Source of the DNA: Clostridia bacterium
GTDB lineage: Bacteria > Bacillota > Clostridia > Christensenellales > Aristaeellaceae
Length of the DNA: 34,122 nucleotides
Direction of reading: 5' to 3'
Assembly (NCBI GenBank): GCA_017938795.1
Contig: JAGBAV010000005.1
Coordinates: 1-34,122, forward strand
Part shown: piece after piece, positions 10,658 to 27,193 of the stretch
Position numbering within the stretch: position 1 is the first letter of the stretch
How the letters are laid out: each line of letters opens with the position of its first letter
Notes under the pieces: generated by a model
The model's database searches: none
Told to the model about the DNA's origin: nothing
What the model saw: the letters and a program-made list of their open reading frames with translations, nothing else
Translations under genes and position numbers: made by a program

Positions 10658-13600
10658 TTACAGGCCCTTCATATATTCCTGAGCCATCTGCACAGCCTTC
10701 TTGAGCGCGGAGGAGGTCATGGTCGCGCCGGACACAGCCTCGACCTCGCCCACATTCTCCTGGCCGGCCACCAGCGCGGACAGGAACTCGGAGCCCTCCG
10801 CCGTCAGATTGCCGCCGATGCCGTCAGTCTCCTGCGCATCGCGCACGGTGACGGACACGATCTTGCCCTCGGCGTCGAAGGTGACGTGGGTCTCGATCTC
10901 GCCGGCATAGCCCTGGGTCGCAACCTCAACCTTGGTGCTGCCGTCGGTGGTGGTGTGGGTCACAACGCCCTCGAACAGCTCGCCGTGGATGGCGAGGTAC
11001 ACCATGCGCTGGAAGTCGCCCACGAAGGCGATGGTCGCGCCGGAGATAGCGTCGCGCTCCTCGATCGGCTGGCTGGACTGGTTGACGGTCTTGAACATCT
11101 CATAGACCTCTTCCAGCGTCATGCCGTTCTCAAGGATGTGCGCCACGATGGCGTCGATCTGCTCGCCGTAGCTGCGGCCGCCGTGATAGCCGGCGAAGGA
11201 CACGCGGGTGCTGCCCTCGACGAACGCGCCGTCCTTATAGAAGCCATGGATCGCCACGAGATCCTTCACCGGGGTCTCGGCGGTCAGGGTGATGCCCGCC
11301 TCGTTAGCGAGGTAGGTGTAGGCGATGATCGCCTTCTCGATGGCGACCGGCTCGCCTGGCTTCGCCAGGTTGACGAAGTTCAGCTCGCCGAAGGTGGTCT
11401 CCTCGGTCAGCTTTTCGGCGGAGGCCGTCACCATGAACTGAGCGTACATGCCCTCGTCGAATTCGGTGCTGTAGCCGTAGGAGGTCAGGGTGGTGAGCTT
11501 GTAGCCATCCTCGGTCTTCTCAACGGCGGCGTCGGAGACGTTCATGGAATAGCCCATGATGCCCTTCTTGGAGTACTCGCCCTCCTGGCCCTTGTTGCGG
11601 ATGATGTCGAAGTTCAGCTCGGTAATCTTGCCGTCGGTGGTCTTGCCCTCGAAGATGAAGGTGTCGTTCTTCGGCTTGCCCGCAGAGGTGGTGCCCTTCA
11701 TCTCGTACTCAGCGGAGAAGATCTCCTCGCCCTCAGCCGTCACGGCGGCCTCGGTCAGGCACTGCGCGACAGCCTTCATGATGCGGCCGGAGGTCAGGGT
11801 CGCGCCGGCGACGGCGTCGACGTCCACGGAGTTGGTCTCCACGATCTTCGCCGGGATGCTTTCCAGCGCAGCGCCGGCGACGGCCTGCGTCTCATGATTC
11901 TCTACGATCTCGACGGAGGCAATCACGCCGCCCGCGATCACGGTCTTGACGGTCATCTGGCCTTCCTGGCCGTCGACGGTGGCGGTATACTCGCCGTCCT
12001 TGAGCTCGGCGGTCATGTCGAACTCAGCGCCGGCGGCCTTTTCCTTCACGAAGAGGCTCTCGTCGAGCAGATTGGAGGCCGGCTTGACCTCATAGCCCTC
12101 GGCGGGCTCGTTGGCCATGGCATGGCGGGCAGCGACCTTACCAAAGACGATCGGGCCCATGACGCCGGTGCCGGAGGAGACGAACTTGCCCCACACGCCG
12201 CCGACGACCTCACCGGCCGCGTACAGGCCCGGGATCACATTGCCGGCCTCGTCGAGGACCTGCATGTTCTCGTTGGCGGTGATGCCGCCCAGGGTCATGA
12301 CGCACAGCGCCTTGAGCGGCACGGCGTAGAACTTATCGCCCTCGATCTTGTTGACGGCGACGTTGTAGGCGGTCTTGGTGCCGTCGTACAGGCGGCCGAA
12401 CTCGTCGGTGCCGCCCGCCTCAACGGCGGCGTTGTAATCGGCGACGGTCTTGGCGAAGGTATCCGCCGGGACGCCGATCTTGCCGGCCAGCTCCTCGATG
12501 GTGGAGGCAGTGGTCACGACATGCCAGCCCGGCTGGCCCTCGGCCTTGAAGTACGCGTCATAGAAGTAGGACTGGCCCGCAGCGGTCAGATCCTCGATGA
12601 TCTTGTCGGTGAAGATATCGTACTGGATCGCCTGCGGCTGCTCCTCAAGGGCGACCTCGCGGATGGCCGGGTTGGTCTCGGTCTCGTCGCAGAAGCGCTC
12701 GCCGTTCTGGTTGATGACGATGCCGCCCGCCTTGTAGGCGTAGGTGTTGGCGATGGCGCCGGTCTTCGGGTTGTCCTTGCTGACAAGGCCCATCGGGAAG
12801 GTCGGGATCGCGCTCATGGAGTCCATGTTCAGCGCAGCGCCGACCTGCTGCATCAGGCGCAGGCCGTTGCCGTCGGAGCCGGCAGCGCCGCCGGCCAGAT
12901 AGTACTCGCCATAGGGCACGTACTGGGCCATGAGCTTGCCGTTGGCGGAGTAGCCGCCGGTGGCGACGATGATCGCCTTGGACGCGGTGTAGCGGACCTC
13001 GCCCTGCGGGCCCTCGGCCACAACGGTCAGAACCTGACCCTTCTCGTTAGCCTCGAGGCGGGTCGCCTTGGTGTTGGTCACGACCTCGATGCGCTCCTCA
13101 GCCGCGAGCAGCTTGTCGAGCACCTCGTGCGCGGCGGACTTGTAGTTCGCCTTGTCGTCGGCGGCCGGCTTGTAGGTGCGCTTGATGGAGAAAAGCGCAT
13201 GCTCCGGCGCGAAGACGGCGCGGCCGCCGGTGGCGCGGTCCACGGAGTAGGTCTTGTCCTTCAGGCCGTTCTCATACAGCCAGTCAAAGACAGCAGCCGC
13301 CTCGTTGGCGTAGACATTGACGAGCTCCTCGGAGGGCTTGCCGCCGAAGTCGCTGCCGATGCGAAGGATGTCGGCGACGTAGGCCTCAACAGAGTCCTCA
13401 ACGCCCTCTTCCTTCTGGATGATGGTGCCGGCAGCGGACAGGGAGCCGCTGGTGTAGTTGAGCGCGCCGCCGGTCTTGGCGGTCATCTCAACGACGATCA
13501 CCTTCTGCGCACCCTGCGCAGCGGCCTCCAGCGCAGCGGACATACCGCCGCCGCCGGCGCCGATGATGATGACGTCGGCATCCGCAGCCTCAGCGGCGGC

Positions 13601-13666
13601 GGGCATGCTCATGCCGCACAGCAGCAGGCTGGCGCAGAGCAGCATCGCGATCATGCGTCTGATCAT
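10658..13666 (-). CDS. Secreted flavoprotein reductase, FAD domain plus C-terminal FMN-binding domains (fumarate/urocanate reductase type)
   Basis: A 1002-residue protein. The ATG at 13666 was chosen because AGGAGG lies 9 nt upstream and a signal peptide follows at once (MIRRMIAMLLCASLLLCGMS, cleavage near AEA). Residues 33-515 are a FAD_binding_2/FrdA-like domain: dinucleotide motif GAGGGGMSAA at 36-45 and the GLYAAGE signature at 480-486. FMN_bind-type segments follow: about 556-636 with DAVAGATLTS (617-626), and about 910-995 with EAVSGATMTS (976-985). A third GAT motif, DAISGATIAF (872-881), lies in a less familiar middle section. In this family ApbE-type transferases attach FMN to the Thr of SGAT. 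The predicted role is extracellular reduction of an organic acceptor, fed by membrane flavin carriers; neither carrier nor ApbE is in the window. The substrate cannot be read from sequence. Confidence 0.92.
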   Translation of the reverse strand: MIRRMIAMLLCASLLLCGMSMPAAAEAADADVIIIGAGGGGMSAALEAAAQGAQKVIVVEMTAKTGGALNYTSGSLSAAGTIIQKEEGVEDSVEAYVADILRIGSDFGGKPSEELVNVYANEAAAVFDWLYENGLKDKTYSVDRATGGRAVFAPEHALFSIKRTYKPAADDKANYKSAAHEVLDKLLAAEERIEVVTNTKATRLEANEKGQVLTVVAEGPQGEVRYTASKAIIVATGGYSANGKLMAQYVPYGEYYLAGGAAGSDGNGLRLMQQVGAALNMDSMSAIPTFPMGLVSKDNPKTGAIANTYAYKAGGIVINQNGERFCDETETNPAIREVALEEQPQAIQYDIFTDKIIEDLTAAGQSYFYDAYFKAEGQPGWHVVTTASTIEELAGKIGVPADTFAKTVADYNAAVEAGGTDEFGRLYDGTKTAYNVAVNKIEGDKFYAVPLKALCVMTLGGITANENMQVLDEAGNVIPGLYAAGEVVGGVWGKFVSSGTGVMGPIVFGKVAARHAMANEPAEGYEVKPASNLLDESLFVKEKAAGAEFDMTAELKDGEYTATVDGQEGQMTVKTVIAGGVIASVEIVENHETQAVAGAALESIPAKIVETNSVDVDAVAGATLTSGRIMKAVAQCLTEAAVTAEGEEIFSAEYEMKGTTSAGKPKNDTFIFEGKTTDGKITELNFDIIRNKGQEGEYSKKGIMGYSMNVSDAAVEKTEDGYKLTTLTSYGYSTEFDEGMYAQFMVTASAEKLTEETTFGELNFVNLAKPGEPVAIEKAIIAYTYLANEAGITLTAETPVKDLVAIHGFYKDGAFVEGSTRVSFAGYHGGRSYGEQIDAIVAHILENGMTLEEVYEMFKTVNQSSQPIEERDAISGATIAFVGDFQRMVYLAIHGELFEGVVTHTTTDGSTKVEVATQGYAGEIETHVTFDAEGKIVSVTVRDAQETDGIGGNLTAEGSEFLSALVAGQENVGEVEAVSGATMTSSALKKAVQMAQEYMKGL

Positions 13667-24046: not shown

Positions 24047-25792
24047 TTACTTCGCCAGAGCGTAGGCGGCGGCGCTGTCGCCAGCGATGCGGCCCCAGGC
24101 AAAGGCGTTGGTGATGGTGAAGCCCATGTAGGCGCTGTTCGCGCTGGCCTCGCCGGCGGTGTACAGGCCCGGGATCACGGTGCCGTCGGCACGGATGACC
24201 TCAGCGGCCTCGTTGCGGGCGATGCCGCCGTAGGTGATGATCTCGCACGGCACGACCTTCACGGCGCAGTACGGAGCCTCGAGCTTCGCCAGCAGCAGAC
24301 GGCCGAACTCCGGATCATGGCCGGTCTCGACGTAGCTGTTGTAGTTGGTCAGGGACTCGACGACAGCCTCCACCGGGAGCTCCATCTTCGCAGCCAGATC
24401 CTCGAAGGTATCGGCGGTGATGAACTCCATGCCGAGGCCGCGGACAACGCCCTTCGCCTCGAGGGAAGCCTTGTCAGAGATCGCCCAGACGTAGCCCACG
24501 CCGTCCTTGTGCATCTGATCGAACACCGGGCTGTTGAGCTTCTGGGTCATGTAGCCGATGTCCTTCTCGTCCACGAAGCGCTTGCCGTTCTGGCCGAGCA
24601 GGACGGTGTTGTCGCGGCTGATGAAGGAGGAGACGTTCGCGGTGGCGGAGGTGCCGTTGTGCTCGGACATAATCTCATAGTCCTTGAGCACGCACATCAT
24701 GTCGCCGGTGTGGGTCAGGGCCGCGCCGACGTTGGAGGCCATGATGATGCCGTCGCCGGTAGAGCCCGGGAAGCCGATGCCCCAGGTGCCGGCCTTCTCC
24801 GGATCCAGACGGGCGGTGAGCTCGGGGTTGTAGGCGTAGCCGCCGGTGGCGACGACGACGGAGTCAGCATAGACGATGATGGTGTCCGCGCCGCGGGTCG
24901 CCTTCACGCCCTTGACGGAGCCGTCTTCGTTCATGAGGATCTCGGTGGCCCTGGTCTCGAGCATGAGCTCGATCTCGGTGCCCGCGAGGGTGGCTTCCAT
25001 GGCGGTCTTCATCGCCGGGCCGGCGCCCTCGACGAGGTGCATCATCTGCAGCGGGCCGTAGCCGACGATAACGTCATAGAACACCATGCCAAGACGCTCG
25101 TTCATCCAGTCGATGGTCTCGCCGGACTTCTCGAGGGTGATGGTGGTCAGCGCCGGATCAAGGCGGTAGGAGGCGTTGTTCATCAGGTTGGCGTACATCT
25201 CCTCGAAGGTGTGATGGACGTCCTTCTCCTTGGTGTACTTGGACTCGTTCGCGCCGACCATGCCCTGGCTGGTCGCGGTGGTGCCGCCGATGGCGGAGAG
25301 CTTCTCCAGCAGGACGACCTTCGCGCCCTTGTCATAGGCCTCGACAGCGGCGGAAACGCCGGAGCCGCCCGCGCCCAGAACGACGACGTCGGTGGTCATC
25401 TCGATGGTCTGGCCCTCAACGGCCTCCTCGGCGACGGCAGTCTTCAGCGCCTCGATGTCGGCGCCGGCCTCGGTCAGCGCGGCCTCGGCAGCGGCGAGGA
25501 TGGCCTTGGAGGTCATGGTCGCGCCGGCGACAGCGTCAACGGCGAGGGTCTGCTTCTCCACGATCGCAGCCGGGATCTTCGCGATCGCCGGGTCGGAGAT
25601 GCCGGCGGTCTCGTTGTGCGCAACGACCTCGACGCTCTCAATCGCGGTCTCGGAGACGGTGACGGCGACCTTCACGGCCTCGCCGAACACGCCCGGGGCC
25701 TCGGCTTCATAGGTGCCGGCGGTCATCGCCATCGCGCTGGAGGAAGCCAGCAGCAGGACGACCAGCAGCAGCGCAAGAATGCTCTTCTTCAT
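24047..25792 (-). CDS. Secreted flavoprotein reductase, N-terminal FMN-binding domain plus FAD domain
   Basis: A 581-residue protein. The ATG at 25792 was chosen because GGAAGGAG lies 7 nt upstream and a signal peptide follows (MKKSILALLLVVLLLASSSA). An FMN_bind domain comes first (about 25-100) with DAVAGATMTS at 86-95, the flavinylation motif. A FAD_binding_2/FrdA-like domain follows (about 134-580): GAGGSGVSAA at 140-149, GGIARNEAAEV and GLYTAGE near the end. The family includes fumarate, urocanate and related extracellular reductases of anaerobes. The domain order is the reverse of the 1002-residue paralogue at 10658-13666. Its promoter carries the same MerR-type dyad, and the MerR gene is divergent from it, so control by that protein is likely. 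The electron acceptor is unknown. Confidence 0.93.
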   Translation of the reverse strand: MKKSILALLLVVLLLASSSAMAMTAGTYEAEAPGVFGEAVKVAVTVSETAIESVEVVAHNETAGISDPAIAKIPAAIVEKQTLAVDAVAGATMTSKAILAAAEAALTEAGADIEALKTAVAEEAVEGQTIEMTTDVVVLGAGGSGVSAAVEAYDKGAKVVLLEKLSAIGGTTATSQGMVGANESKYTKEKDVHHTFEEMYANLMNNASYRLDPALTTITLEKSGETIDWMNERLGMVFYDVIVGYGPLQMMHLVEGAGPAMKTAMEATLAGTEIELMLETRATEILMNEDGSVKGVKATRGADTIIVYADSVVVATGGYAYNPELTARLDPEKAGTWGIGFPGSTGDGIIMASNVGAALTHTGDMMCVLKDYEIMSEHNGTSATANVSSFISRDNTVLLGQNGKRFVDEKDIGYMTQKLNSPVFDQMHKDGVGYVWAISDKASLEAKGVVRGLGMEFITADTFEDLAAKMELPVEAVVESLTNYNSYVETGHDPEFGRLLLAKLEAPYCAVKVVPCEIITYGGIARNEAAEVIRADGTVIPGLYTAGEASANSAYMGFTITNAFAWGRIAGDSAAAYALAK

Positions 25793-25933
25793 GGTGGTTC
25801 TCCTTCCTGTTTGTCCGCGCCTGCGTATGCGCAGGCTGTGCATGCCGGCAGAAAATGGGGATTGATTTTTGTGCTTCATTCCCTTACACTATATGTAACA
25901 ATATAACGTTTCCGCCGGTCGTATTCCTTGTCC

Positions 25934-25964
25934 ATTGTATCATCTCAAGCGGCTTGAGAATCAA
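25934..25964 (-). promoter_or_regulatory. MerR-type promoter with 19-bp spacer and CTCAAG dyad
   Basis: On the minus strand TTGATT (25964-25959) and TACAAT (25939-25934) are 19 nt apart, and the spacer begins with CTCAAG-CCG-CTTGAG. This layout is identical to 13740-13770. The dyad also lies over a possible weak plus-strand promoter for the MerR gene (TTGAGA at 25954, TATCCG at 25978), which would allow autoregulation. Confidence 0.85.
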
Positions 25965-26026
25965 GCGTGTTTTTTCATATCCGGACAGATTTTTATCAAA
26001 CTCGCACAGCGACGGAGGACCCCCGT

Positions 26027-26836
26027 ATGAAGATATCGATCAGCGCTTTATCCGATGCATACGGCCTGACGCCGGAGGCTTTGCGCTATTATGAAGAAAA
26101 GGGGCTGCTCACGCCGTCCCGCGCAGCTTCAAGCGGCTTTAGAAAATACTCGCTGGAGGACGTCAAGCGTCTGGGAATTATCAAGAGCCTGCAGCGGCAG
26201 GGCTTCTCGCTGGAGGAGATCCGCTCCGTCCTGACGGGCTGCACGCTCAGCGATCTGACGGCGATGATGGACGAGAAGCGCGAGCAGATGCGTGAGCAGA
26301 TCACGCAGGCAAGCGCCATCTACAACAGGCTGATCACGGGCGCGGCGATGCTGCGGGACAGCGCGGCGCTGGACCTGCAGCCCCGGCTGTGCGCGGGGAG
26401 CGCGGCATATATCGTGGACTATGACTCCTACCATGTGATGTGGGAGCATGTGCCCTCCTCGCCGCTGCTGCGCAGCCTCATCAGCGCGCTGCCGCTGACG
26501 AGCTACTGCACCGTCGTGCCCAAGGCGATCTTTCTGGGGCAGGACGTGCCGTTCCGCGCCGGCCTGTGCGCTCCGGCGGAGTGCCTGACGGCCATCCACG
26601 CCGACTTCTCCCTGATGCGCATGTGCGCCGGCCCGCGCACGGTGCGCGTCGTCTATGAGCTCTCCCCGCCCGAGCGTCGCAGCATCCATCCCGCCGCGCT
26701 GGCTGCGCGCGCATTCCTGCAGGAGCGGTCCCTTACGCCTGTCTGCGACGCCTACACGCGGGACTATGCGTGGTACGTCGGGCAGGACGGGCGCAAGCAT
26801 CACTACTGCGAGCTGATCATCCCCATCAGCGACTGA
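26027..26836 (+). CDS. MerR family transcriptional activator with small-molecule-binding domain
   Basis: A 269-residue protein from the ATG at 26027, with GGAGGA upstream. Residues 1-70 are a MerR helix-turn-helix (ISALSDAYGLTPEALRYYEE, then KGLLTPSR and FRKYSLEDVKRLGIIKSL). A coiled linker follows at about 75-115 (MMDEKREQMREQITQASAIY). Residues about 130-269 look like a GyrI/BmrR-type effector domain. No metal-binding cysteine pattern of the MerR/CueR kind is seen, so an organic ligand is more likely. It is divergent from the secreted reductase, whose promoter has the 19-bp spacer dyad such regulators need. The same dyad upstream of the other reductase gene implies a second target. The ABM gene follows after 24 nt. 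Confidence 0.92.
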   Translation: MKISISALSDAYGLTPEALRYYEEKGLLTPSRAASSGFRKYSLEDVKRLGIIKSLQRQGFSLEEIRSVLTGCTLSDLTAMMDEKREQMREQITQASAIYNRLITGAAMLRDSAALDLQPRLCAGSAAYIVDYDSYHVMWEHVPSSPLLRSLISALPLTSYCTVVPKAIFLGQDVPFRAGLCAPAECLTAIHADFSLMRMCAGPRTVRVVYELSPPERRSIHPAALAARAFLQERSLTPVCDAYTRDYAWYVGQDGRKHHYCELIIPISD

Positions 26837-26860: not shown

Positions 26861-27193
26861 ATGCCGATCACCATCCACATCACATACCGCGGTCAGAGCG
26901 GCGCCGCCCGGCTGTTTGCGCAGGAGATGACGTCCGCCGGCGTCGTCAGCGCCATCCGCGCGCAGGAGGGCTGCCTCGCCTACGCCTATTACCTCCCGAT
27001 GGACGACGACGAGGCCGTCCTGCTGATGGACAGCTGGGCGAGCCAGCAGGCGCTTGACCGCCATCACGCCTCGCCGATGATGGCGCAGATCGCCGCGCTG
27101 CGCGAAAAGTACAGCCTGAGCATGACGGTGGAGCGCTTTATCCCCGACGAAGCGGGGATCCCCGACAGGGACAGAGCCTTCATCCGGCCATAA
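26861..27193 (+). CDS. ABM-domain protein (putative quinol monooxygenase, YgiN-like)
   Basis: A 110-residue protein with AAGGAGG 8 nt before the ATG, 24 nt behind the MerR gene and so in its operon. It reads as an antibiotic-biosynthesis monooxygenase domain: an N-terminal strand MPITIHITY, the segment EEGCLAY-like (QEGCLAYAYYLP), then LLMDSWASQQALDRHHASP and the helix MMAQIAALREKY. Such small ferredoxin-like dimers oxidise or bind quinols and related aromatics without a cofactor. Here it may handle the molecule sensed by the regulator or protect against quinones; both ideas are inference. Confidence 0.85.
   Translation: MPITIHITYRGQSGAARLFAQEMTSAGVVSAIRAQEGCLAYAYYLPMDDDEAVLLMDSWASQQALDRHHASPMMAQIAALREKYSLSMTVERFIPDEAGIPDRDRAFIRP

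Follow-up and report, generated by a model that had tools for sequence, protein, structure and literature searches.

A MerR-type regulator predicted to control two distant secreted flavin reductases through a shared promoter dyad

In a 34,122-nt stretch of DNA from a Clostridia bacterium (here called the window), two genes for secreted flavin reductases lie far apart, one of them divergent from a MerR-type regulator gene, and each is preceded by a promoter that encloses the same inverted repeat. Does one regulator switch on both reductases, and what might it sense? The question turns on eight features of the window:

10658-13666, minus strand: RedA-carrier fusion, 1002 aa, with FAD_binding_2 and two FMN_bind domains and a signal peptide recognised by eye
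10658-11749, minus strand: aa 640-1002 of this fusion, the carrier part, which other species encode as a separate FMN_bind gene
13770-13740, minus strand: operator-promoter A, TTGCGC-CTCAAG-CCC-CTTGAG-GCGG-TATAAT, 19-bp spacer, reading TTGCGC-CTCAAGCCCCTTGAGGCGG-TATAAT and predicted to drive RedA
24047-25792, minus strand: RedB, 581 aa, with FMN_bind and FAD_binding_2 domains and a signal peptide recognised by eye
25862-25890, plus strand: putative merR promoter, TTGATT-17-TACACT, a conserved block between RedB and operator B
25964-25934, minus strand: operator-promoter B, TTGATT-CTCAAG-CCG-CTTGAG-ATGA-TACAAT, 19-bp spacer, reading TTGATT-CTCAAGCCGCTTGAGATGA-TACAAT and predicted to drive RedB
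26027-26836, plus strand: merR-type regulator, 269 aa, with a helix-turn-helix at residues 4-70 (Pfam MerR_1, E 3.9e-18) and a putative C-terminal effector domain
26861-27193, plus strand: ABM-domain gene behind merR (Pfam ABM, E 6.6e-14)

Promoters A and B share the minus-strand pattern TTGNNN-CTCAAG-NNN-CTTGAG-NNNN-TAnAAT, in which the dyad abuts the -35 hexamer and four bases separate it from the -10 box. All 12 arm letters are identical between the two operators, which lie 12.2 kb apart, operator A 73 nt upstream of the RedA-carrier fusion start and operator B 141 nt upstream of that of RedB. Scans of the window and the assembly thus confirmed the two minus-strand promoters with one dyad and exact 19-nt spacers that a preliminary description of this DNA had reported; as promoters, both sites have the exact architecture, and the -35 box of promoter A (TTGCGC) is weak. 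At up to two mismatches, the window holds six dyad matches against 1.13 expected, two of the six being exact; a near-match at 26128 was rejected as an operator because it falls in the merR coding sequence. The exact dyad occurs at three places in the whole assembly, of which the third (C15:8012) was set aside since it lies within a predicted gene, without promoter boxes. The genome-wide search proposed in the preliminary description, run here with the full promoter pattern at up to two mismatches, returns sites A and B alone, both before reductase genes, and the reversed-pattern control returns none; the assembly searched (2.87 Mb, 156 contigs) is 79% complete, and more targets may be missing.

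The exact promoter pattern is rare. It occurs in one of 391 class genomes, the window's own, which was the sole member of its genus drawn, and in 0 of the 390 others. In the family, where 308 genomes were scanned, 12 genomes carry 20 sites at one mismatch or fewer between them; the reversed pattern has one hit. Eleven of these genomes belong to the window's genus; the twelfth, G179, belongs to another, and its site lies between a MerR gene and an ortholog of a further reductase, RedC. Allowing two mismatches in the 29 genus genomes yields 26 hits in 15 genomes (reversed control, 4), of which those in G002, G008 and G026 were discarded as operators, being in predicted coding sequence with no reductase or MerR nearby. 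For column analysis we used 22 sites from 13 genomes, dropping five of the 26 two-mismatch hits (three coding, two beside a paralogous MerR) and adding G030. Over these sites TTG, C7, T8, A10, A11, C16, T17, T18, A20, G21, T26, A27 and T31 are invariant, in part by construction, since most of these columns belonged to the search pattern. The operator block also emerges when 10 RedB-merR regions are aligned independently of that pattern.

The operator also tracks the regulator. A MerR ortholog is present in 12 of the 29 genus genomes, the 10 other complete copies being 56-64% identical and that of G010 lying in two pieces; G030, from another genus, has an ortholog of 52% identity. The genomes compared are related MAGs whose counts are not independent, so that the p values are guides rather than strict probabilities: with contexts curated and up to two mismatches allowed, 11 of the 12 MerR genomes carry the operator before a secreted reductase or the FMN carrier, against 1 of the 17 others (Fisher p 4e-6), and the figures become 10/12 against 1/17 at one mismatch or fewer (p 3.3e-5) and 11/12 against 4/17 when every two-mismatch hit is counted (p 4.8e-4). 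G019 has the operator only in its two-mismatch form. G013 (78% complete) has MerR but yielded no operator, and a contig end truncates its RedA; conversely, G006 (80% complete) yielded no MerR ortholog despite an exact operator upstream of the carrier. The RedA genes of MerR-less G008 and G009 are without the operator; in G001 (RedC, no MerR ortholog found), the contig starts only at the -10 box, too late to show one. Upstream of RedA in G008 (C76, L264) a similar -10 end persists (GGTGTATAAT), with an 18-bp spacer and no dyad, which looks like a lost operator.

The genes behind the sites recur as well. The site precedes RedB in all nine genus genomes for which the RedB 5′ end is available (at most one mismatch), and in G030 with two mismatches. 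A second site stands before RedC in G003, G007, G010, G016, G024, G027 and G028, before RedA in G000, G017, G019 and G025 (with two mismatches in G017 and G019), and before the carrier alone in G006; equivalents of operator A before a reductase are found in 10 other genus genomes, at RedC in seven and at RedA in three. The target list is therefore as short as the preliminary description had expected, with sites before reductases and their FMN carrier. No RedC ortholog was found in the window's assembly, which is 79% complete. Gene order varies around the second site: operator, RedC, RedA and carrier follow one another as three separate genes in G003 and G016, RedC is followed by RedA in G007, G010 and G028, and a carrier gene lies behind RedB in G025. 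RedA and the FMN carrier, fused in the window, are separate on G003:C125 and G016:C19, and on G006:C4 the carrier alone remains at the syntenic place with its operator. Both the fusion and the sharing of operators suggest a single pathway, and the regulon would then be one physiological module of secreted FAD/FMN reductases and an FMN electron carrier.

Three observations argue for a single regulator at both sites, as the preliminary description had proposed: the identical arms, an unlinked operator in two genomes, and a homologous MerR beside RedC in two others. G010 (96% complete) and G019 (93%) have merR, and neither a RedB ortholog nor an adjacent operator was found in them; their operator lies at the RedC or RedA locus, on a contig other than that of merR. 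G053 and G179, from two other genera, each have a full-length MerR homolog (33% identity) transcribed divergently from a RedC gene (77% identical in G053, 73% in G179), and the operators, GTCAAG-CGA-CTTGAC and GTCAAG-CCG-CTTGAG respectively, keep the same frame. RedC thus adjoins this type of regulator in the outgroups and is its predicted unlinked target in the window's genus. At L280 (G085), outside the family but within the order, a MerR gene (27% identity) and a RedB-like reductase (36%) are divergent, and the sequence TTGACC-CTCAAA-CCG-CTTCAG stands upstream; our promoter scan scored no long spacer here. This locus suggests that the pairing of MerR with a reductase may be older than the family.

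The regulator itself has the N-terminal winged-helix MerR domain (PF13411, 65.8 bits against a cut-off of 21.6), as do all 11 orthologs scanned, and its putative operators place a dyad inside a 19-20-bp promoter spacer. For its start, ATG 26027 with ggagg upstream is preferred over GTG 25967. The regulator does not look like a metal sensor (MerR, CueR, ZntR, CadR): all 14 NCBIfam models listed score below their cut-offs, and no cysteine column is invariant among the 11 orthologs, in agreement with the earlier remark that a metal-binding cysteine pattern is lacking. The BmrR/GyrI-like effector domain named there stays putative. A profile of the full-length regulator aligns to BmrR (residues 4-262 against 7-271, E 3.8e-8); the C-terminal domain goes unrecognised, with no Pfam match to GyrI-like PF06445 at E≤10 in the 11 orthologs, nothing at E≤1 when its profile alone is compared with PDB profiles, and an hhalign probability of 0.3 against one GyrI-like protein. 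Length and full-length alignment, rather than the C-terminal domain alone, therefore suggest a BmrR-like ligand domain, and the regulator may plausibly sense an organic compound. In G025 (L046:1170) and G030 (L047:1996), an exact copy of the dyad, CTCAAGCGGCTTGAG, is embedded in the merR reading frame as well, across codons P-L-K-R-L-E-G, reflecting either chance codon use or an internal operator.

MerR proteins are described as activators of long-spacer promoters in PMC8113463 and PMC11049809. We propose that the regulator at 26027-26836 very probably activates RedB and the RedA-carrier fusion through the CTCAAG-NNN-CTTGAG element in both promoters. A MerR dimer would bind this element within the over-long 19-bp spacers and hold the promoters poised in a poor geometry; ligand binding would untwist the DNA and align the -35 and -10 boxes, allowing RNA polymerase to transcribe the divergent neighbour RedB and the fusion 12 kb away. 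The inducer may be the electron acceptor or its product. On the opposite strand, a TTG(A/C)TT-17-TA(C/A)ACT block is present in all 10 aligned RedB-merR regions, and the copy at 25862-25890 is probably merR's own promoter; a transcript from it would cross operator B, so binding there would probably repress merR. The preliminary description had also counted the ABM gene as a partner switched on with the reductases, which we reject: no ABM match at E≤1e-4 was found beside other MerR orthologs in the stretches examined (fewer than 400 bases behind merR in G003 and G024), and the gene lies on the plus strand behind merR, where a minus-strand promoter cannot drive it.

RedA and RedB combine FAD_binding_2 with FMN_bind domains, and ApbE, which attaches FMN to domains of the FMN_bind type, is encoded in all 29 genus genomes, the make-up expected of flavinylated extracytosolic reductases. 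RedB orthologs are 79-87% identical, and the RedA part of the fusion is 68-81% identical to genus orthologs. The carrier, a separate gene of about 360-400 aa in G003, G016, G025, G027 and G006, has one FMN_bind domain and a weak, below-cut-off similarity to RnfG. A D-x-V-A-G-A-T-x-T type motif, which we take to be the covalent-FMN motif, is present in RedA and RedB, and the same search found none in RedC. By hand reading of the alignment, the places of Fcc3 H365, R381, R402, H504 and R544 are taken in RedB by Y, S, T, I and A, and in RedA the equivalents of the catalytic Arg, H365, H504 and R544 are not conserved. These residues comprise a catalytic Arg and carboxylate-binding His/Arg, and their absence makes fumarate or urocanate reduction unlikely for RedA and RedB, which would then not be ordinary reductases of either compound; the two had been among the acceptors first suggested. 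The window's genome as a whole has 31 FMN_bind domain matches, with five such domains in one C82 protein, and many reductases lie beside single regulators; besides MerR, some of these resemble TetR or LysR (N-termini, by eye).

The arrangement is not confined to this regulator. We surveyed 60 regions chosen from MerR homologs, together with loci collected earlier, in stop-to-stop frames, and defined a pair as a MerR gene divergent from, or directly before, a reductase, taking the best-scoring upstream promoter whose spacer measured between 15 and 21 bp. Among 74 MerR hits, 35 form such pairs and 39 do not. The spacer is 19 bp in 27 pairs and 20 bp in three (30/35), whereas of 12 control reductases of the window's genome, beside which stop-to-stop frames reveal no MerR, none has 19-20 bp and eight have 17 bp (p 1.2e-7, with several pairs being mutual orthologs and the effective sample smaller than 35). 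In 100 dinucleotide shuffles of the pair regions, a mean of 3.64 and at most nine had 19-20 bp. An earlier subset of 30 pairs gave 19 bp in 23 and 20 bp in two, against 0/12 (p 5.6e-7), and the five pairs added by stop-to-stop frames all have 19 or 20 bp. Fourteen of the 35 have a strict 6-3-6 dyad in which five or more of the six pairs are complementary (shuffles: mean 0.03, at most one), and 21 do not; L280 and L321 have no long-spacer promoter in the scan. The arms vary with the regulator cluster (CTAAAG/CTTTAG, CGCAAG/CTTGCG, CCAAAG/CTTTGG, TTGGAG/CTCCAA, CGTCAC/GTGACG, TGTGTG/CACACA). Further pairs in the window's own genome lie on C29 and C75 (19-bp dyads), C11 (18-bp) and C38 (19-bp spacer, no clear dyad).

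These pairs suggest, as a hypothesis and the more surprising part of this work, an array of sensors. On balance it seems probable that many secreted flavin reductases of the family each have a MerR paralog and an operator of their own, giving anaerobic respiration one-sensor-per-acceptor control, with regulators gaining or losing reductases in trans as the operator moves. The frame would stay the same (-35, six-base arm, three-base centre, six-base arm, three to five bases, -10), with mainly the arm letters changing.

Could the second dyad instead belong to a paralogous MerR with the same half-site, leaving the regulator to act on the divergent RedB only? The genome encodes at least five further MerR homologs, and several paralog operators have an AAG-N3-CTT core. 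We nevertheless hold this improbable, given that arm letters differ between MerR clusters while the window's sites agree at every position, that the trans site tracks this MerR ortholog even where no RedB was found, and that in G053 and G179 the homologous MerR adjoins RedC itself. Short dyads do arise by chance, as the expected two-mismatch matches in the window illustrate, and the repeats might be accidental neighbours of ordinary promoters; such a reading is hardly credible, being already contradicted by the family-wide counts (20 sites against one reversed) and the class genomes (no exact site in 390). Moreover, the dyad stands out between the promoter boxes in the pattern-free alignment, and reductases without MerR have ordinary 17-bp spacers in most cases and 19-20 bp in none.

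A more specific doubt comes from the half-site, as CTCAAG/CTTGAG also lies between -35 and -10 in the E. coli SoxR box CCTCAAGTTAACTTGAGG, as given in PMC4411124. On that likeness, the regulator would be a SoxR-type redox or stress sensor and the reductases a defence against redox-cycling compounds rather than respiratory enzymes. We consider this quite improbable: the 11 orthologs have no conserved cysteines for an iron-sulphur cluster, the SoxR equivalog model scores 37.5 bits against a cut-off of 116.9, the dyad centre is three bases where the SoxR box has four, and the targets observed are secreted reductases and their carrier. Activation of both reductases by the one divergent MerR-type regulator is the reading we retain, and as far as sequence can tell the regulon is real.

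The nearest known systems include the BmrR-type activators (BmrR, EcmrR), which the regulator resembles in length, N-terminal MerR helix-turn-helix, full-length profile alignment to BmrR and 19-bp spacer promoters, and from which it differs in a C-terminal domain that is not recognised as GyrI-like and in targets that are secreted reductases instead of efflux pumps. RedA and RedB resemble the UrdA/Fcc3-like flavinylated extracytosolic reductases, described in PMC10979944, in domain make-up, apparent signal peptides and ApbE; they differ in lacking the conserved Fcc3 catalytic residues (in RedA, at the positions read) and in the fusion of RedA to an extra FMN carrier. Our literature searches met no MerR regulator of this reductase type, though we do not claim its absence from print. 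The system is of a known kind, a MerR regulon, with new targets.

In this gut-type bacterium, one sensor appears to switch on two distant secreted enzymes that dispose of electrons, and its relatives carry the same switch together with several look-alike switches before similar enzymes. Judged by gene order, RedA, RedB, RedC and the FMN carrier belong to a single pathway. To our knowledge, no acceptor is known for most of the flavin reductases that gut bacteria secrete. A regulator whose operator is defined and whose targets are few offers a direct route to such acceptors: whichever compound induces a reporter should be the acceptor itself or a product of it. The paralogous pairs open this route for about thirty-five more reductases in the genomes sampled, and finding out what each sensor detects could reveal the respiratory compounds of these bacteria.
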